Assembly (NCBI GenBank): GCA_018711275.1
Contig: DVIN01000003.1
Span: 1-64,000 of the forward strand
Source of the DNA: Candidatus Pullilachnospira intestinigallinarum
GTDB lineage: Bacteria; Bacillota; Clostridia; Lachnospirales; Lachnospiraceae
Direction of reading: 5' to 3'
DNA: 64,000 nt
Part shown: in pieces, positions 21,989-31,152 of the stretch
Position numbering within the stretch: the stretch's first letter is position 1
Layout of the letters: every line of letters begins with the position of its first letter
The notes under the pieces: generated by a model
What the model saw: only the letters and a program-made list of their open reading frames with translations
Databases searched by the model: none
What the model was told of the DNA's origin: nothing
Program-made: the position numbers and the translations under genes

Positions 21989-23344
21989 CTACATCACAAT
22001 TCCGCAGATCACAAATCCCACAATCGACAGCACACTGGCAATCGCCACATAGGGAAGCTGGGAGATGGTATGCTCCATGTTATCAATTCCGGCGCTCTGG
22101 GAAGAAAGCAGGGTTGCATCCGCATAGAAGCAGGCATGGCTTCCGAAAGCTCCGCCGGATACCACAGCTGCCATGATCAGAACCGGATTTGCCCCGATGG
22201 CCGCGCCCAGCGGAAATACAATGGGGGAAACCACCGCGCTCATGCCCCAGAAAGAACCGGTAGCGAAACAGATGGCAGCAAGAACAACAAATACCACCGC
22301 CGGGAATGCGGCGCCTGTCATCAGCGGTTCCGCCACATCAATGATAAAATCTGTCATACCCATACCTTCCGTCACTCCCTGAAGGACAAAGGCAATCAGC
22401 AGAATCATCAGCGTCGGCAGCATATCCGCGAAACCGCGGATAACCAGGTTAAAGAACTCCTCCAGATTCATCAGCTTCTGAGGCACATACAGGATCAGGC
22501 ACACAAACAGAGCCACTACCACCGCGGAAAGAAGATCGCCGGTGATTACGGTAAGGGCCACCAGGATTACCATAGGAATCACGAAATTCCAGATATTTCC
22601 GGATTCCTCATACCCCTTCCGGTCCTCATGATTGTATTTCCGGCTGGCGTCACTGTATACCTTGCCCGTTTCCTCCACCCGCTGGAACGCTTTCTTCATG
22701 GCGCCCAGCTTCGGCATAATGCCCAGAGAAAACAGCAGCGCAATCAGCAGGGTAAGAATCGGATAAAACGCAAAGGGCGCCGCATGAACATACGCGGACA
22801 TTCCTGAAGAGAATCCCATCGCCTGTACGCTGGGCTGCTCCCAGAACAGGGAAGAATAAAACACCGCCCAGGTGGAAAAGGGAAGCAGCACACAGTCCGC
22901 GGCTCCGGTGGCGTCCAGCATGTATGCCAGACTCTCTCTGGGAAGCTTCCGTTTGTCGCTGACATTTTTCATACAGACGCCGATGGTCAGCACGTTCAGA
23001 TAATCGTCCACAAAGATCAGGATTCCCATGATAAAGGTGGTCAGCAGCGTTCTCCTCTGATTGGTACAGAATTTGGACACCAGCGCGGAAAATCCGAAGG
23101 TTCCCTTCGACTCCTGAAGCAGGGCGATGAGACTTCCGAACAGCCCGCAGACCAGGAAAATCCACACGTTGTCCGTCAGCGAGGTCTGCAGAAGCGAACA
23201 CCATTCCGTCAGGAAATCGCCTCCGTACATGACGATGGCCGCCACAATGGATCCGCCGATCAAAAATTCCATGCAGCGCCTGGTGACAATGGCGCCCACG
23301 ATAACCACTAAAATAATAAGAATTGCTATAAGTCCAGTATTCAT
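21989..23344 (-). CDS. NhaC-family Na+/H+ antiporter-like permease
   Basis: 451 residues from ATG 23344 (MNTGLIAIL) behind GGGAGG; the ORF-track start 10 codons earlier lies in the terminator hairpin. About ten to twelve hydrophobic segments. Typical of NhaC are ILIFVDDYLNVLTIG near residue 110 and FATGSFWGMSAVVSPIVFPLG plus GAFGSHACFYADATLLSS in the C-terminal half. Family members exchange Na+ for H+ or amino acids or amines. In an amine-fermenting operon it may export product, import substrate or balance pH; this is inference. Only 19 nt separate the preceding hairpin's T-run from its start codon. Confidence 0.85.
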   Translation of the reverse strand: MNTGLIAILIILVVIVGAIVTRRCMEFLIGGSIVAAIVMYGGDFLTEWCSLLQTSLTDNVWIFLVCGLFGSLIALLQESKGTFGFSALVSKFCTNQRRTLLTTFIMGILIFVDDYLNVLTIGVCMKNVSDKRKLPRESLAYMLDATGAADCVLLPFSTWAVFYSSLFWEQPSVQAMGFSSGMSAYVHAAPFAFYPILTLLIALLFSLGIMPKLGAMKKAFQRVEETGKVYSDASRKYNHEDRKGYEESGNIWNFVIPMVILVALTVITGDLLSAVVVALFVCLILYVPQKLMNLEEFFNLVIRGFADMLPTLMILLIAFVLQGVTEGMGMTDFIIDVAEPLMTGAAFPAVVFVVLAAICFATGSFWGMSAVVSPIVFPLGAAIGANPVLIMAAVVSGGAFGSHACFYADATLLSSQSAGIDNMEHTISQLPYVAIASVLSIVGFVICGIVM

Positions 23345-23362: not shown

Positions 23363-23398
23363 AAAAAGAGGCATACCTGTCTGTCGGTATGCCTCTTT
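23363..23398 (-). terminator. Intrinsic terminator between patA and nhaC
   Basis: AAAGAGGCATACC (23365-23377) pairs perfectly with GGTATGCCTCTTT (23386-23398), and on the minus strand it runs into CTCTTTTTC. It lies 49 nt after the patA stop and leaves no room for a promoter before nhaC. Confidence 0.85.
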
Positions 23399-23447
23399 GC
23401 ATTACGAAATTCCTTATTTCGGAATATCCGCCGCAGCGGAATCCTTT

Positions 23448-24818
23448 TTACAGCTGAAATGCCTTCTTTGTGTCAGCCAGCGCCTCGTCCATCCGGCTGA
23501 TCACATCCTTGATATCCTGCTCGGAAATCACCGCCGTGGGCTCGAACCGGATCGTCTTGGCGTTCACCAGCGTACCTGCCGTCATAACTCTTCTGGCAAA
23601 TAATCCTTTGGCACATTCGTAACCCAGTTCACAGGTGTGGAATTCCACCGCCAGCATCAGGCCTACGCCCCGCACCTCCTGGATCACCTCCGGATATTTC
23701 TCTGCCAGCTGTTCCAGTCCTGCTTTCAGCAGCTTTCCTTTTTCGCGGCAAACGCCGGGGATATCGTTTTCCAGCATATATTTGATGGTGGCAATGGCTG
23801 CCGAACAGCAGACCGGATTGCCGCCGAAAGTGGGAGAGCCCAGGAGCCAGGGATTATCAATCAGATCCTGCACCCACATCTTCGGTTTGCAGATAATTCC
23901 GGTAATCGGCATGATGCCGCCGCCGAAAGCCTTTCCGAATGTCATGATATCCGGAACCACGCCCTCTGCCTCGCAGCGCCACATGGTACCTGTCCGTCCC
24001 ATACCGGTCTGGATTTCATCAAAGATAAGCGCAACGCCCGTTTCGTCACAGATCTTCCGCACTTCCGTCAGGTATCCTTCCGGCGGAACGATCACGCCGG
24101 CTTCTCCCTGGATGGGTTCCAGAATCACCGCGGCGACCTTTTCCCCCACTGCCTGGAGATTCCGAATGGCCTTGCGGATATCCTCCGCATTGCCGTACTC
24201 CACATGCTGTACCTGCTGTACCATGGGAATGTACGGGATCCGGTAGGTACCCTTTCCTCCCATGGAAACGGCTCCCATGGATTTCCCGTGGAAAGCTCCC
24301 ACCGTGGAAATAAACCATCTGCCTCCGGTAGCGATTCTGGCCAGCTTCAGTGACATCTCCACCGCCTCGGCCCCGCCGTTGGTGAAGAAGCAGTACTGCA
24401 GATCGCCCGGTGTGATATCTGCCACCGCCTTTGCCAGATAGCCGCGCAGAGGATCAAGAAGCTCCTGGGAATGCAGCGCCTGATGATCCAGCTGTGCCTT
24501 CACCACATCCAGAATGGCCGGATTTCTGTGACCGCAGGTATAGATACCAAATCCGCCCAGACAGTCGATGAATTTCTCACCATTTAATCCGTAGCAGTAA
24601 GCGCCTTCATCCTGCCACTCAAGAACGGCCCCGTTCTCCGAATCAGAAGAAACAGATTTCCGGTATTTCAGCCAGCCCGGGCTGACATAATTGTCAAAAT
24701 GATCCAGCGTCTCGCTGACCATTTTCTTTTTCTCTTCCTCCGGGATCTGATCACTGTCCGTCTCAATCAGTGAAATCACCCGTTCCAGATCCTTGATTAC
24801 CTGTTGTTTCTCTGCCAT
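23448..24818 (-). CDS. patA: Putrescine aminotransferase
   Basis: Transfers an amino group of putrescine to 2-oxoglutarate, giving 4-aminobutanal. 456 residues. It shares with E. coli YgjG/PatA the stretches YRKSV, FIDCLGGFGIYTCGHRNP, LHSQELLDPLRGYLAK, AAVILEPIQGEAGVI and GTLVNAKTIRFEP, recalled from the family. PLP lysine lies in MTFGKAFGGGIMP, and PLP-phosphate contacts in TNGGAEAVE and GAFHGKSMGA. The start follows GGAAGGGAGA. Its leader contains a terminator hairpin, and a LuxR-type regulator is divergent. The gene heads the catabolic string that continues with nhaC. Confidence 0.93.
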   Translation of the reverse strand: MAEKQQVIKDLERVISLIETDSDQIPEEEKKKMVSETLDHFDNYVSPGWLKYRKSVSSDSENGAVLEWQDEGAYCYGLNGEKFIDCLGGFGIYTCGHRNPAILDVVKAQLDHQALHSQELLDPLRGYLAKAVADITPGDLQYCFFTNGGAEAVEMSLKLARIATGGRWFISTVGAFHGKSMGAVSMGGKGTYRIPYIPMVQQVQHVEYGNAEDIRKAIRNLQAVGEKVAAVILEPIQGEAGVIVPPEGYLTEVRKICDETGVALIFDEIQTGMGRTGTMWRCEAEGVVPDIMTFGKAFGGGIMPITGIICKPKMWVQDLIDNPWLLGSPTFGGNPVCCSAAIATIKYMLENDIPGVCREKGKLLKAGLEQLAEKYPEVIQEVRGVGLMLAVEFHTCELGYECAKGLFARRVMTAGTLVNAKTIRFEPTAVISEQDIKDVISRMDEALADTKKAFQL

Positions 24819-24902: not shown

Positions 24903-24945
24903 GAAAAAAGGTGTATCCGCTGCGATTCCACAGCAGATACACCTT
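24903..24945 (-). terminator. Leader terminator (attenuator candidate) upstream of patA
   Basis: AAGGTGTATC (24908-24917) pairs with GATACACCTT (24936-24945), plus GCTG/CAGC after one mismatch, with an 8-nt loop. On the minus strand six T residues follow. No minus-strand gene lies upstream, so it can only act on transcripts heading into patA. Confidence 0.75.
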
Positions 24946-24978
24946 CGTATCTATGTCAGTTTTTGTTTTGATGGATTT

Positions 24979-25007
24979 ATCATACTCCTTTCTGCCCTTT
25001 TCCACAA
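24979..25007 (-). promoter_or_regulatory. Candidate patA promoter
   Basis: Minus-strand TTGTGG and TATGAT separated by 17 nt. Transcripts would meet the leader hairpin about 27 nt after starting. Confidence 0.5.
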
Positions 25008-25038: not shown

Positions 25039-25082
25039 CTATCATATATACTTGTTTTTAAGTATTTCATGTGCTATGATAG
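25039..25082 (+). promoter_or_regulatory. Promoter with nested inverted repeats before the LuxR-type gene
   Basis: TTGTTT (25052) and TATGAT (25075) are 17 nt apart. They lie inside CTATCAT...ATGATAG arms, with a second inverted pair ATACTT/AAGTAT in between, so the region could be a regulator-binding operator. Confidence 0.55.
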
Positions 25083-25122: not shown

Positions 25123-25887
25123 ATGGATAAGAACATGTTTTTTATTTTCAATGATATCGTTTACCATCTCTATGCCTGCCGCAGCCTGGAAGATCTGAAA
25201 AATGATTTTCTTGTCCCGCTGAAGATGCTGGTGCCCTACAGCTTTGCCAGTATTCTGCTGACAGATCCCTCTGCCGGCACGGATGAGATCCGGTTCGGAC
25301 GGGCAGTGTGCATTCCGGATTCTTTTGAGGAAGCGGAAAATATTTATATGGATCGTCTGGACGAAGACCCGCTGCTCTGGATTCTGCACACCAAGGAGTC
25401 CACGCTGGTCCGGGAAAGCGAACTGCTCCCGGAGGAGGAACGCCTAAGTTCTCCCCTGTACCGGAGCTGCTATCAGAAATATCACATTTTTGATTCCGTT
25501 CAGTACAGTATCGTTTACCGGCAGAAAATGCTGGGGATCCTTACCCTATACCATACCCGGATCGACGGAACCTTTACCAATGAGGATATGTTCCGGCTGC
25601 GCTCACTGGGGATCCATCTGAACGCGGCTCTGCACAATCTTCTGGAGGGCCGTCCTCCGGAAGCTGTTACAGAGCAAAAACGTCTGGATCATTTTCGCCT
25701 GAGCTGCGGACTGACCCCCAGGGAAACACAGATCCTGCAGCTTCTGCTGACCTTCTCTTCCAATGAGGAGATCACGGACGCTCTCGGAATTTCCACCCAC
25801 ACGCTGCAGAAACATATGCAGAATATTTTTCGGAAAACGGGTGTTTCCTCCCGCTGGGAGCTTTTAAAAAAGGGACAGACTTTCTGA
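25123..25887 (+). CDS. LuxR-type transcriptional regulator (divergent from patA)
   Basis: 254 residues, start behind GGGAGG. The C-terminal 65 residues are a LuxR/GerE helix-turn-helix (LTPRETQILQLLL ... EITDALGISTHTLQKHMQNIFRKTG). The first 180 residues resemble a GAF-like sensor fold with no motif I recognise. No receiver domain is seen, so it is probably not a standard response regulator. Position beside patA and next to potABCD suggests it senses a polyamine, a product or a redox/nitrogen signal and controls this island (inference). A second regulator of the same build lies at 30298-31002. Its stop codon is inside a bidirectional terminator. Confidence 0.82.
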   Translation: MDKNMFFIFNDIVYHLYACRSLEDLKNDFLVPLKMLVPYSFASILLTDPSAGTDEIRFGRAVCIPDSFEEAENIYMDRLDEDPLLWILHTKESTLVRESELLPEEERLSSPLYRSCYQKYHIFDSVQYSIVYRQKMLGILTLYHTRIDGTFTNEDMFRLRSLGIHLNAALHNLLEGRPPEAVTEQKRLDHFRLSCGLTPRETQILQLLLTFSSNEEITDALGISTHTLQKHMQNIFRKTGVSSRWELLKKGQTF

Positions 25888-25919: not shown

Positions 25920-26972
25920 TTATTTTTTCAGTTCCGTCCAGATGGAATCATAGATTGCCAGTGTGTCCGGATCCAGATTCTGTACATATTCCCCGGATGC
26001 GATCACATCCTGCGGCACATTCTTGGCCGGGTTGGAGGAGTAATCCTCTCCCAGCAGATCCATGGCCGCCGTGTTGGGCTGCAGATACGGAAATTCTTCC
26101 GATACCTTCTGCGCGGTCTCAGCCCTCAGCATATAGTCAATAAACTGATACGCGGCGTCCACATTTTTCGCGTCTTTGGTAATGCACCAGTTGTCCATAA
26201 AGATATAAGGGCCTTCCTTGGGAAATACAATTTCTATAGCGGGATTTTCTTCCATGGCCAGCGCGATTTCCGCGCTCCAGCAGACACCGGCGGAACAGTC
26301 CCCGGCAATCAGCGCGGATTTGGGACTGTCGCTGTCATACAGCTTGATATTATTTTTCAGCTTCAGGGTCTGTTCTTTTATCTGCTCCAGCTTATCCGGA
26401 TCCGTCTCATTCATACTCAGTCCGATACTGCGGGCCGCCATACCGATCACCGCCCGGTAGTCGTCCAGCACCACCAGGCTGTTCCGGAACTCATCAGTGA
26501 ACAGATCCGCATAGGAGGTCACTTCCGTCTGAATCATATCGGTATTCACAGCGATCGCGGCCACACCTCCCATGTAGGGAACCGCGTATTTTCCTTCGGG
26601 ATCATAGGAGGGGTTCCGGTAGGCCTCGCCGATATTGTCCAGATTCTCCAGCCGGTCCGTATCCAGCTTCAGCAGCATATCCTGGGAGGCCATCTGTTCC
26701 ACCATATAATCGCTGGGCTGCACAATATCATAGGCCCCGGCAGTCTCCGATTTCACCTTTGCCAGCATATCCTCATTGGAAGAGTAGGTGGAGATATTCA
26801 CCTGAATCCCTGTCTCTTCTTCAAAGGCCTCCACCACCGAGTCCGGAACATATTCCGTCCAGATAAACACGTTCAGTTCCCCTGCGTCGCCGCTTCCGCC
26901 ACTGCTTCCGCAGCCGGTCATGGAAAGCATTGCCGACAAAATCACCAAGCCTGCGCACATTCTCTTTTTCAT
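25920..26972 (-). CDS. potD: Spermidine/putrescine ABC transporter substrate-binding lipoprotein
   Basis: 350 residues. A signal peptide ends in the lipobox LSMTGC, with Cys21 as the likely lipidated residue, so the protein is anchored outside the membrane. The mature part is a class 2 binding protein: LNVFIWTEYVPDSVVEAFE is typical of PotD/PotF, and YDIVQPSDYMVEQM and FMDNWCITKDAKN also fit. It delivers polyamine to PotBC. Specificity for putrescine or spermidine cannot be read by eye. Last gene of the pot operon, behind AAAGGAGG, 22 nt after potC. Confidence 0.94.
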   Translation of the reverse strand: MKKRMCAGLVILSAMLSMTGCGSSGGSGDAGELNVFIWTEYVPDSVVEAFEEETGIQVNISTYSSNEDMLAKVKSETAGAYDIVQPSDYMVEQMASQDMLLKLDTDRLENLDNIGEAYRNPSYDPEGKYAVPYMGGVAAIAVNTDMIQTEVTSYADLFTDEFRNSLVVLDDYRAVIGMAARSIGLSMNETDPDKLEQIKEQTLKLKNNIKLYDSDSPKSALIAGDCSAGVCWSAEIALAMEENPAIEIVFPKEGPYIFMDNWCITKDAKNVDAAYQFIDYMLRAETAQKVSEEFPYLQPNTAAMDLLGEDYSSNPAKNVPQDVIASGEYVQNLDPDTLAIYDSIWTELKK

Positions 26973-26994
26973 AGTTTTCTCCTCCTTTTCGGCC

Positions 26995-27795
26995 TCAGTT
27001 TCTTTTCTTCTGGAACAACCCGCTCTGGGTCACCGCCACCAGCGCGATGGTGCCGATCAGTATCAGCACGGACAAGGCGTTCACATCGGGCGATACGCCG
27101 CTTTTGATACTCTCCATTACCTTCAGCGGGAAGGTGCTTACCTGCCCGTTGGTAAAATAACTGATGATCACGTCATCAATGGAGAGGGTAAATGCCAGCA
27201 GAGCGCCCCCGCCGATTCCCGGCACCAGCACCGGAAGGGTAATGCGCAGAAACGTCTGCACTCTTCCGGCTCCCAGATCCATCGAGGCTTCCTCCACCGA
27301 ATAATCATAGCCTGCCAGCCTGGCCCGCACGTTGAAGATCACAAATGGAATACAGAACGTGGTATGGGCCAGAATCAGAGTGAAAAGTCCTCTGGGAATT
27401 CCGGTTCTGGAAAACAAGGTCAAAAGCGCAATTCCCAGCACAATTTCCGGAATCACCACCGGAATATAAAGCAGCGCGTCTACCGTCTTTTTCCCCCGGA
27501 ATTTGTACCGGTACATTCCCACCGCTCCCAGCGTGCCGATCACGGTGGAAAGCAGCGTGCTGGTCAGGGCAATCAGCATGGTATTTCCGAAGGCAGACAG
27601 AAGCGTATGATTGTCAAAAAGCCGGACGTACCAGTCCAGGGTAAATCCCTTCCAGGACAGGTAAGGCTTTGTGGTGGAAGCATTGAAAGAATTGACTGCC
27701 ACCACTGCGATCGGAAGAAACAGGAACAGGTAAATCAGCGTACAGTATGCCACCCCCAGCCCTTTCTTCCCTTTCTTTTTTCCCTCTCTCTTCAT
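26995..27795 (-). CDS. potC: Spermidine/putrescine ABC transporter permease PotC
   Basis: 266 residues with about six membrane helices. The cytoplasmic EAA loop reads EEASMDLGAGRVQTFLRITLPVLVPG, the contact for the ATPase. It starts 3 nt after the potB stop behind GGGGGTG, so translation is coupled. It forms the transmembrane channel with PotB. Confidence 0.94.
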   Translation of the reverse strand: MKREGKKKGKKGLGVAYCTLIYLFLFLPIAVVAVNSFNASTTKPYLSWKGFTLDWYVRLFDNHTLLSAFGNTMLIALTSTLLSTVIGTLGAVGMYRYKFRGKKTVDALLYIPVVIPEIVLGIALLTLFSRTGIPRGLFTLILAHTTFCIPFVIFNVRARLAGYDYSVEEASMDLGAGRVQTFLRITLPVLVPGIGGGALLAFTLSIDDVIISYFTNGQVSTFPLKVMESIKSGVSPDVNALSVLILIGTIALVAVTQSGLFQKKRN

Positions 27796-27798
27796 CCG

Positions 27799-28659
27799 TC
27801 ACACCCCCAGACTTTCCATGCTCCCCCCGCATTTTTGATAAAGCTTTACCAGCAGGAGGGTTATCAGAATCAGAATAATGGACAGCGCGGCCCCCAGCGG
27901 CCAGTTGTTTCCGCTCTGGAACTGCCGTTCGATCAGATTTCCGATCACATCCGCGTTTCCGCCTCCCAGGATATCCGACACATAAAAGAAGCCCAGACAC
28001 GGAATAAATACCATGATGGATCCGGAAAAAATTCCGCTGGCCGTCAGCGGCAGCACCACCCGGAAAAAGGTCACCGGTCCCTTCGCTCCCAGATCCGAGG
28101 AAGCCTCCATCAGACTCTGATCCAGTTTTTCGATGGCGGTATACAGCGGAAGCACCATGAAGGGGAACAGGCAATAAACCATGCCCAGCACCGTCGTGCC
28201 CTGGCGAAACAGAAAGTCTATTGGAGTATCCACCAGATGCAGCGTCTGCAGAAGGCTGTTCAGCCATCCGTTGGTTCCCAGAAACGTTCTCCACCCGTAT
28301 ATCCGGATCAGGGAATTGGTCCAGAAAGGAATGATCACCAGCATATAAAGCAGCGCCTTTCTCTTTGGAAATGTCCTGGCGATCAGAAACGCGAAGGGAT
28401 ATCCCAGAAAAATGCAGATCACTGTGGTCAGCGCGGCAATCAGAAAGGACTGCGCGTAAATCTGAATATAACTGGCATCCAACAGCCTCCGGTAGTTCTC
28501 CAGTGTAAACTGAAATTGAACGTTGTAGTTCTGATCAATACTGCAGAAGCTTATCACCGCCACAAACAGCAGCGGAAGCGCCACAAAAAACAGAAGCCAC
28601 AGGGTCACCGGCCCCACCATGGGGAGGGCGGCGGCCAGATTTCTTTTTTCTGCCTTCAT
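27799..28659 (-). CDS. potB: Spermidine/putrescine ABC transporter permease PotB
   Basis: 286 residues, about six membrane helices, with EAA loop MEASSDLGAKGPVTFFRVVLPL. N-terminal PMVGPVTLWLLFFVALPL is typical of PotB-like permeases. The start follows AGGAGGTGATGGA, 11 nt after potA. Partner of PotC. Confidence 0.94.
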   Translation of the reverse strand: MKAEKRNLAAALPMVGPVTLWLLFFVALPLLFVAVISFCSIDQNYNVQFQFTLENYRRLLDASYIQIYAQSFLIAALTTVICIFLGYPFAFLIARTFPKRKALLYMLVIIPFWTNSLIRIYGWRTFLGTNGWLNSLLQTLHLVDTPIDFLFRQGTTVLGMVYCLFPFMVLPLYTAIEKLDQSLMEASSDLGAKGPVTFFRVVLPLTASGIFSGSIMVFIPCLGFFYVSDILGGGNADVIGNLIERQFQSGNNWPLGAALSIILILITLLLVKLYQKCGGSMESLGV

Positions 28660-28670
28660 TCCATCACCTC

Positions 28671-29786
28671 CTAAGCCATCTTTACATTTTCCACGGCATC
28701 AAAAAATACATCGTCCAGTGAATGGAGCAGTCTCTCGTCTCCCGGATCCCAGTAAAGATAAACCCTCCCCTCCCCGGGCAGTTCCTCCCTGGAAAGCCGC
28801 TCGATACGGATCTCGTCTCCATTGGGGAGGACGACAATGGTTTTCAGCACAGAACCCGCGTAAATCTGTTCCCGGATTTCGCCGGAAATGGTAAACCCTT
28901 CCACCGGAACGGCGGAAAATTTCATGCGCTCCGGTCTGACAGAGACAGCCACCATCTCCCGTTCCCGGAATTCCCTGCCCCATGCACGGACCGTTCCCGC
29001 TTCCACTGTGACCGTTACCTCATCCCCCATCTTACGGCTGACATATCCCTCCAGCAGATTGGTCTCTCCGATAAAGGTCGCCACAAAACGGGTGGCCGGA
29101 TTTTCATAGATCTCCAGAGGGGTCCCCACCTGCTCCAGAACACCGTCCCGCATAATCGCGATCCGGTCGCTCATGGTCAGCGCCTCCTCCTGATCGTGGG
29201 TGACATAGATGAAAGTGATATTCAGCTTTCTCTGCAGCCGTTTCAGTTCCAGCTGCATCTGCTTGCGAAGCTTCAGATCCAGCGCTCCCAGAGGCTCATC
29301 CAGCAGCAGCACCCGCGGCCGGTTAATCAGCGCCCGGGCGATGGCCACCCGCTGCCTCTGCCCGCCGGAAAGCTGAGAGGGATAGCGTTTTTCAAAGCCT
29401 CCCAGCTGCACCAGCTCCAGCATATGCGTCACCCGTTCCCGGATCTCCTGCTTCTTCACCTTGCGGATGGTGAGTCCGTAAGCCACATTGTCAAATACCG
29501 TCATGTGGGGAAACAGCGCATAACTCTGGAATACGGTATTGACATTGCGCTCATAGGGTTCCCGGTTCGCCATATTCTCTCCTTCCACATATACGGCTCC
29601 CCCGGTAGGCATTTCAAAACCGGCGATCATCCGCAGGGTCGTGGTCTTTCCACAACCGGAAGAACCCAGCAGCGTCAGAAATTCTCCTTCGTAAACCTCC
29701 AGATTCAGATCTTTTACCACATGGTTCTGACCGTCATATACTTTGTTCAGATTTTCCAGCTTCACCGTAACTTTTCTTTCTCCCAA
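28671..29786 (-). CDS. potA: Spermidine/putrescine ABC transporter ATPase PotA
   Basis: 371 residues. Walker A GSSGCGKTTTLRM, Q-loop VFQSYALFPHMTV, signature LSGGQRQRVAIARAL, Walker B VLLLDEPLGALDLK and an H-loop in YVTHDQEEALTMSD. The C-terminal 130 residues form a TOBE-type regulatory domain. It hydrolyses ATP to power polyamine import by PotBCD. The annotated start is TTG at 29786 with GGAG only a few nt upstream; an in-frame GTG at about 29765 is an alternative. It follows the PII-like gene by 21 nt. Confidence 0.93.
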   Translation of the reverse strand: MGERKVTVKLENLNKVYDGQNHVVKDLNLEVYEGEFLTLLGSSGCGKTTTLRMIAGFEMPTGGAVYVEGENMANREPYERNVNTVFQSYALFPHMTVFDNVAYGLTIRKVKKQEIRERVTHMLELVQLGGFEKRYPSQLSGGQRQRVAIARALINRPRVLLLDEPLGALDLKLRKQMQLELKRLQRKLNITFIYVTHDQEEALTMSDRIAIMRDGVLEQVGTPLEIYENPATRFVATFIGETNLLEGYVSRKMGDEVTVTVEAGTVRAWGREFREREMVAVSVRPERMKFSAVPVEGFTISGEIREQIYAGSVLKTIVVLPNGDEIRIERLSREELPGEGRVYLYWDPGDERLLHSLDDVFFDAVENVKMA

Positions 29787-29807: not shown

Positions 29808-30167
29808 TTATAATGCTTTCTTTCCCCGCTCGCCGGTACGGATGCGGATCACATCCTCCACGCTGCGGATAAAGATTTTTCCGTCTCCCACATGGCCCTC
29901 TGCCAGTTCCTCCCGGATTCTGGCAATGACGGGCTCCACCATGCTGTCCCGCATCACCGCCTCCACCCGGATCTTTGGCAGAAGATTGATGGTGGTTTTG
30001 AAGCCTTTGATCTGGTTCTGATAGGGTCCCGATTCCTCATCGTATCCTTTCTGGGTTCCGCAGCCCATCACACTGGAAATGGTCATACCGCCGCAGCCCA
30101 TCTCCTCCATGATGTTTTTCACCGTCTCCAGTTTCTCCGGACGAATAATAATCATCAATTCCTTCAT
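29808..30167 (-). CDS. potN: PII-family signal protein of the pot operon (PotN-like)
   Basis: 119 residues from ATG 30167 (MKELMIIIRPEKL) behind GGAGGAG; the track start is a TTG two codons earlier. The C-terminal PII signature GDGKIFIRSVEDVIRIRTGERG is clear, as is GMTISSVMGCGTQKG before the T-loop. The T-loop is longer than in GlnB/GlnK and lacks the usual Tyr51 context. Known: a PII subfamily named PotN, linked to potABCD in Firmicutes, has been described as binding adenyl nucleotides. I infer this is a member that tunes polyamine uptake to energy state, perhaps through PotA. First gene of the pot operon. Confidence 0.82.
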   Translation of the reverse strand: MKELMIIIRPEKLETVKNIMEEMGCGGMTISSVMGCGTQKGYDEESGPYQNQIKGFKTTINLLPKIRVEAVMRDSMVEPVIARIREELAEGHVGDGKIFIRSVEDVIRIRTGERGKKAL

Positions 30168-30198
30168 ACACAATCTCCTCCCTTTCTTTCCGTAAAAG

Positions 30199-31064: not shown

Positions 31065-31093
31065 TTTATAAAACAAGAAAGACGCTCTGTCAG
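31065..31093 (-). promoter_or_regulatory. Promoter of the second LuxR-type gene
   Basis: Minus-strand CTGACA and TATAAA separated by 17 nt. The -35 box lies within the terminator hairpin of the preceding gene. Confidence 0.5.
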
Positions 31094-31108
31094 AAACAGA
31101 ACGTCTTT
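31078..31108 (-). terminator. Hairpin terminator after the DUF1015 gene
   Basis: AAAGACG and TCTGT pair with ACAGA and CGTCTTT across a short loop. On the minus strand TTTCTTGTTTTAT follows. Confidence 0.65.
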
Positions 31109-31152
31109 GTTTGGATGGAATTATACATCATTTTTCTGAAAATGGCAAGGTG

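Follow-up and report, generated by a model that had tools for sequence, protein, structure and literature searches.

A putative single-hexaloop attenuator ahead of patA and its likely place among nitrogen genes of Clostridia

What is a strong terminator doing between the promoter and the start of a gene for putrescine breakdown? In the 64,000-nucleotide stretch of Candidatus Pullilachnospira intestinigallinarum DNA analysed here (contig DVIN01000003.1, hereafter the window), the gene that would be regulated, patA (23448-24818, minus strand), matches the putrescine aminotransferase profile NF008570 above cut-off, in agreement with the identity first given to it. The gene on the other side is divergent, as had been stated: it encodes a LuxR/GAF-type regulator (25123-25887, plus strand), recognized by profile matches and, from locus comparison, a conserved neighbour of patA. 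The original prediction placed a strong hairpin followed by six T between a minus-strand promoter and patA, and proposed that it attenuates transcription. These elements are all found: an intrinsic terminator (24904-24946, minus strand) made of an 18-bp stem (24946-24929 paired with 24924-24907) and a 4-nt loop, with six T directly at its end (24909-24904), preceded on the same strand by a predicted -35 box TTGTGG (25002-25007) and, after a 17-nt spacer, a predicted -10 box TATGAT (24979-24984). This promoter was missed by a consensus scan because its -35 box is weak. With a predicted start near 24972, an A-rich, unstructured 5' leader (24953-24972, minus strand) would open a transcript having about 26 nt ahead of the terminator, and the terminated RNA would measure about 69 nt, close to the 27 and 75 nt announced.

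The folding energy of the terminator is -31.3 kcal/mol; its z-score is -9.4 and none of 200 shuffled sequences is equally stable. Its absence from close relatives had been named as an observation that would speak against attenuation; in the one relative of the same genus, at 82% identity, the hairpin is retained, together with an unchanged -10 box, TTGAAG at the place of the -35 box and a diverged spacer. The stem substitutions of that relative yield G-U pairs on the minus strand, where they would be mismatches if the plus strand were transcribed. Since pairing is kept in this way, the minus strand is the one from which the element is read, and selection bears on the RNA. At the DNA level the hairpin is single-copy, which rules out a genomic repeat element, and comparison of the patA leader with Rfam gave no riboswitch or leader reaching the gathering score. 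Two other matches to GATACRANGGYGTAT lie inside dnaE and an aminopeptidase gene and were set aside; spacer-region matches of 25 nt in two genomes of the family are attributed to chance, one falling in a hisG-like coding gene and the second where an unrelated open frame begins.

The leader also holds an alternative fold. AGAUAC (24952-24947) is complementary over 6 bp to GUAUCU (24940-24935), itself in the 5' arm of the terminator, and the small hairpin that they form around the hexaloop GAAGGU (24946-24941; whole element 24935-24952, minus strand) and the terminator are mutually exclusive. The antiterminator hairpin being worth -4.7 kcal/mol against -28.4 for the terminator, termination should be the default state. 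A scan of public genomes for patA gave about 80 loci, and the same arrangement was found in 32 patA leaders, amounting to 33 elements, as two stand in tandem in one Treponema leader; the comparison of orthologous leaders for alternative pairing that had been advised at the outset thus brings out a conserved hairpin. Its small stem appears as AUAC/GUAU, AUGC/GCAU, GUGC/GCAC, GUAC/GUAC, AAAC/GUUU, CAUC/GAUG or UGUC/GACA. Across the 33 elements, in a final set that was pre-screened for a 4-bp stem, 132 of 132 cells are paired, with 19 double-change cells (3 in shuffles) and a covariation of 0.58, against 0.17 in shuffles; a scan run without the requirement for upstream pairing found the 4-bp stem already present in T-run patA leaders of this type. 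The terminator stem, for its part, is 97.7% paired, with a covariation of 0.67 against 0.28. Terminator, promoter and exclusive hairpin being conserved with covariation, attenuation of patA appears, on the strength of sequence comparison, very likely, as first proposed.

The loop of this hairpin follows a pattern of its own. Among the patA elements the closing pair is C:G in 33 of 33, position 4 is G in 33 of 33 (the matches having been screened for G or A there) and position 1 is A in 26 of 33; the leader under study has G at position 1, and the purine-A-N-G pattern is kept. Screening bias was removed by a count free of any condition on loop bases or closing pair, which took, in the fetched loci, every hairpin with a stem of 4 bp or longer and a loop of 5 to 7 nt that overlaps a T-run terminator at its 5' base. 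Loops of 6 nt made up 183 distinct cases, against 50 of 5 nt and 68 of 7 nt; within these 183, the closing pair is C:G in 127, position 1 is A in 122 and G in 39, position 2 is A in 137 and position 4 is G in 144. It must be borne in mind that loop bases A2, G4 and G5 double as the base of the terminator, which gives a second cause for their conservation.

The switch is not restricted to patA. Among the qualifying matches of a pattern search of eight whole genomes, aimed at no gene, are some ahead of patA and of genes for GS-III, AmtB, a class II amidotransferase and an NhaC-like carrier. Directed tests placed it ahead of 22 of 24 amtB genes and about 18 of 30 GS-III genes in the family, and ahead of 8 of 11 amtB genes in sister families. 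The fetched loci (2.46 million strand-bases) contain 129 distinct matches against a single one in reversed sequences, a lenient control, as reversal also destroys true terminators. Downstream are patA, amtB, GS-III, GS-I, P-II, CTP synthase, patA-adjacent aldehyde dehydrogenases, NhaC-like carriers and others, in proportions biased by loci that were mostly chosen for nitrogen or polyamine genes. One culturable carrier is Blautia luti (locus L014). Elsewhere in the genome under study the switch also precedes at least glnA, GS-III and CTP synthase. Glutamine-consuming enzymes are again concerned where it stands before CTP synthase and a PurF-like amidotransferase (L217 +2721, L219 -, L031 -5866). 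Aldehyde dehydrogenase genes next to patA, probably the next step in putrescine breakdown, carry it in Acholeplasmatales and Treponema bins (L048 1522; L050/L051/L054 4363; L066 1221; L071 1235). Tandem switches, each with its own terminator, precede patA (Treponema) and amtB (L066 2861 and 2915; L194 1290 and 1365; L196 1310 and 1380).

The window, which was not chosen for the switch, has three matches, all before polyamine or nitrogen genes. The second copy (23363-23404, minus strand), with TAATGC and GCATAC around the loop AAAGAG and a terminator, was found by pattern match ahead of the gene for a carrier of the NhaC-like Na+/H+ antiporter family (21989-23344, minus strand; PF03553), and other NhaC-like loci are arranged alike. 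The ATG at 23374 that begins the longest open frame falls inside the switch hairpin, for which reason the true start is probably the second Met, at 23344 (MNTGLIAI). The third copy (31070-31111, minus strand; also a pattern match), AAC and GTT around AAAGAC followed by a terminator, comes immediately after a TATAAT box, is retained in the same-genus relative (L251:4063) and heads the operon luxR2-PII-potABCD. In this operon the second gene encodes the nitrogen regulatory protein P-II (29808-30173, minus strand; PF00543, E 1.3e-26) and the genes of the polyamine ABC transporter, potA-potB-potC-potD, follow (25920-29786, minus strand; domain and family profile matches). The P-II gene sits between that for a LuxR-type regulator and potA, and may couple polyamine uptake to the nitrogen state. 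As this element is also found ahead of genes for glutamine synthetase, AmtB and P-II, nitrogen status is the likely signal; this displaces putrescine, the signal first envisaged. A switch common to nitrogen and polyamine genes would therefore make polyamine uptake and breakdown part of the nitrogen regulon.

What could read such a hexaloop? Targets of ANTAR proteins have a hexaloop with A1 and G4, in a hairpin, P2, that overlaps the terminator (PMC3369931); selection with NasR brought out a C:G closing pair and A1/G4 (PMC7496416), and in the 2022 structure G4 is the sole base-specific protein contact, one hexaloop being the minimal site (PMC8934654). The patA leader has its hexaloop hairpin over the 5' arm of the terminator (24952-24935 over 24946-24907), with G4 and the C:G closing pair, has G instead of A at loop position 1, and belongs to a genome that encodes an ANTAR protein (G000:C83; PF03861, 56.4 bits), from a gene directly after glnA. 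As glnA carries the switch, this regulator would control itself. It had been argued that the leader was too short for a classical riboswitch and would call for an antitermination protein: the protein fits the ANTAR-like hexaloop, but the short leader does contain an antiterminator. An ANTAR protein is encoded in 10 of 10 patA-bearing genomes of the family, a co-occurrence that says little because ANTAR is near-universal there (34 of 37 genomes); a laboratory Bacillus subtilis strain, used as control in this search, gave none. Among patA genomes it was found in 22 of 24 with the switch and 16 of 25 without (p 0.037), a modest association; of the genomes that lack ANTAR, 13 of 14 also lack amtB, so that the co-occurrence of ANTAR with the amtB switch is uninformative there. 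Of the EutV contact residues, the family proteins keep E160 and M172, mostly have H for Y164 and do not keep R142/K143; glnA-linked pseudo-receiver ANTAR proteins with H at the Y164 position are found at L144 (1087-1665) and in L137-L149. The Asp that is phosphorylated in EutV is replaced in the family, which makes phosphorylation an unlikely signal; contact with glutamine synthetase or P-II would be our guess.

We can therefore understand the locus as a nitrogen-regulon attenuator, a reading that we hold with good confidence, in which an ANTAR protein would hold the hexaloop hairpin and let transcription read through into patA. By default the nascent RNA would fold into the 24946-24907 hairpin and most polymerases would halt at the T run, releasing the RNA of some 69 nt. 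Under nitrogen shortage, the ANTAR protein encoded behind glnA would bind and hold the hexaloop hairpin (24952-24935), which would sequester the 5' arm of the terminator and allow polymerase to continue into patA. The same signal would open the P-II/potABCD operon, the NhaC-like carrier gene, GS-III, glnA with its ANTAR gene, and CTP synthase. That an ANTAR protein is the reader is likely from the features of loop and genome; that shortage, rather than abundance, opens patA is probably right, judging from the enzymes concerned. More tentatively, and with rather less than even confidence, we may extend this scheme to a nitrogen regulon of Clostridia governed by single-hexaloop antitermination, where a glnA-linked ANTAR protein without phosphorylation site, probably reading the state of glutamine synthetase or P-II rather than a histidine kinase, would hold one hairpin open where each transcript begins, polyamine uptake and catabolism included. 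The divergent LuxR/GAF-type neighbour is probably an additional regulator, acting on patA initiation. A perfect inverted repeat (ATACTT-AAAAAC-AAGTAT, 25048-25065), located in the luxR promoter region and kept in the same-genus relative, is possibly the operator of this LuxR-type regulator.

Among other accounts, the one that survives best would have the hexaloop read by another protein, either an RNA-binding antiterminator of unknown type or a LoaP-like NusG paralogue. The lack of a P1 hairpin, two switch-bearing metagenome-assembled genomes where no ANTAR gene was found, and the replacement of Y164 by H would agree with it; yet loop length, C:G closing pair, purine or A at position 1 and G4 fit the ANTAR signature, and the amt, gln and P-II regulon is that predicted for ANTAR, so that we consider it unlikely. 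Distinctly less probable is a terminator that acts constitutively and does no more than reduce patA expression, with the small hairpin as a by-product: this would suit a very stable hairpin whose regulation is deduced from sequence, but not a small hairpin that covaries independently, nor the unbiased enrichment of 6-nt loops sharing one sequence. Slightly behind comes a miniature riboswitch sensing glutamine, ammonium or a polyamine directly. One might think of it for a short conserved element common to functionally related genes and explained by no Rfam match; its conservation, however, is limited to a hairpin of 3-6 bp with a 6-nt loop, stem sequence being free, and the A-rich leader is not conserved and is nearly absent at many amtB and GS genes. 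The adjacency of luxR and patA in about 25 loci might have made the inverted repeat a DNA operator for the divergent regulator, an explanation largely refuted, as stem sequences change completely with pairing kept, G-U pairs included, and the same element lies ahead of amtB and GS genes in many genomes. Finally, a separate small RNA ended by the hairpin, with a promoter of patA's own in the remaining stretch of about 85 nt, is barely conceivable, as nothing specific speaks for it, that stretch is poorly conserved, with indels, and the T run is just 21-29 nt from the patA start codon in several relatives.

Returning to the attenuator held by an ANTAR protein, how does it compare with known systems? 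With the RAT elements of the BglG-LicT family it shares a single protein-held antiterminator hairpin over a terminator, but RAT is an element of 29-30 nt (PMC3369931), where the switch has a stem of 3-6 bp and a hexaloop. The hairpin sites of CsrA are likewise hexaloop-like, closed by AC/GU and carrying GG in the loop. CsrA requires GGA in the loop, whereas the loops of the switch are mostly GGC or GGU; GGA is missing from nearly all of them, and a CsrA site was rejected. Closest are the ANTAR targets (EutV/eutP, NasR/nasF, AmiR/amiE), which have the same hexaloop hairpin over the 5' arm of the terminator, the same C:G closing pair and G4, with purine or A at position 1, and which likewise combine nitrogen-metabolism genes with a genome-encoded ANTAR protein. 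A 2012 prediction, made under a dual-hairpin model, already placed P-II, ammonium transporters and glutamine synthesis under ANTAR (PMC3369931), and one agmatinase gene in Streptomyces has already been predicted as an ANTAR target. The regulators differ from the EutV type in being pseudo-receivers, with the phosphorylated Asp replaced and the gene placed by glnA. The RNA differs too: the targets described so far carry a tandem pair of hexaloops, both of which EutV requires in vivo (PMC3369931), whereas the switch has one, with no P1 within reach. An upstream P1 hexaloop was found in 1 of 32 patA leaders (1.9 expected by chance) and in 8 of all 129 switch matches (6.5 expected), and for many amtB and glutamine synthetase genes only 7-10 nt separate the -10 box from the hairpin; being at the predicted 5' end of the RNA, it leaves no room for a P1. 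With a second hexaloop absent beyond chance, the switch is not a member by the dual-hairpin definition. What appears to be new here, with earlier mention possible, is the form with one hexaloop, how widely it occurs, and the membership of polyamine uptake and catabolism; the main text of PMC3369931 and of PMC8934654 names neither patA, nor the P-II/pot operon, nor the patA-linked aldehyde dehydrogenase genes. Two hexaloops have been considered necessary for ANTAR antitermination in vivo, whereas the 2022 structure pointed to one as the binding unit: natural one-hexaloop attenuators in many genomes, with a short distance from promoter to hairpin, make this question directly testable. The use of putrescine and spermidine by gut Lachnospiraceae would be tied to nitrogen status, and a C-RANGRN-G hairpin inside a leader terminator would provide a simple signature to read nitrogen regulons from sequence. 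By analogy, the switch appears to work like an ANTAR attenuator reduced to its P2 half, a single-hexaloop variant of the known family.
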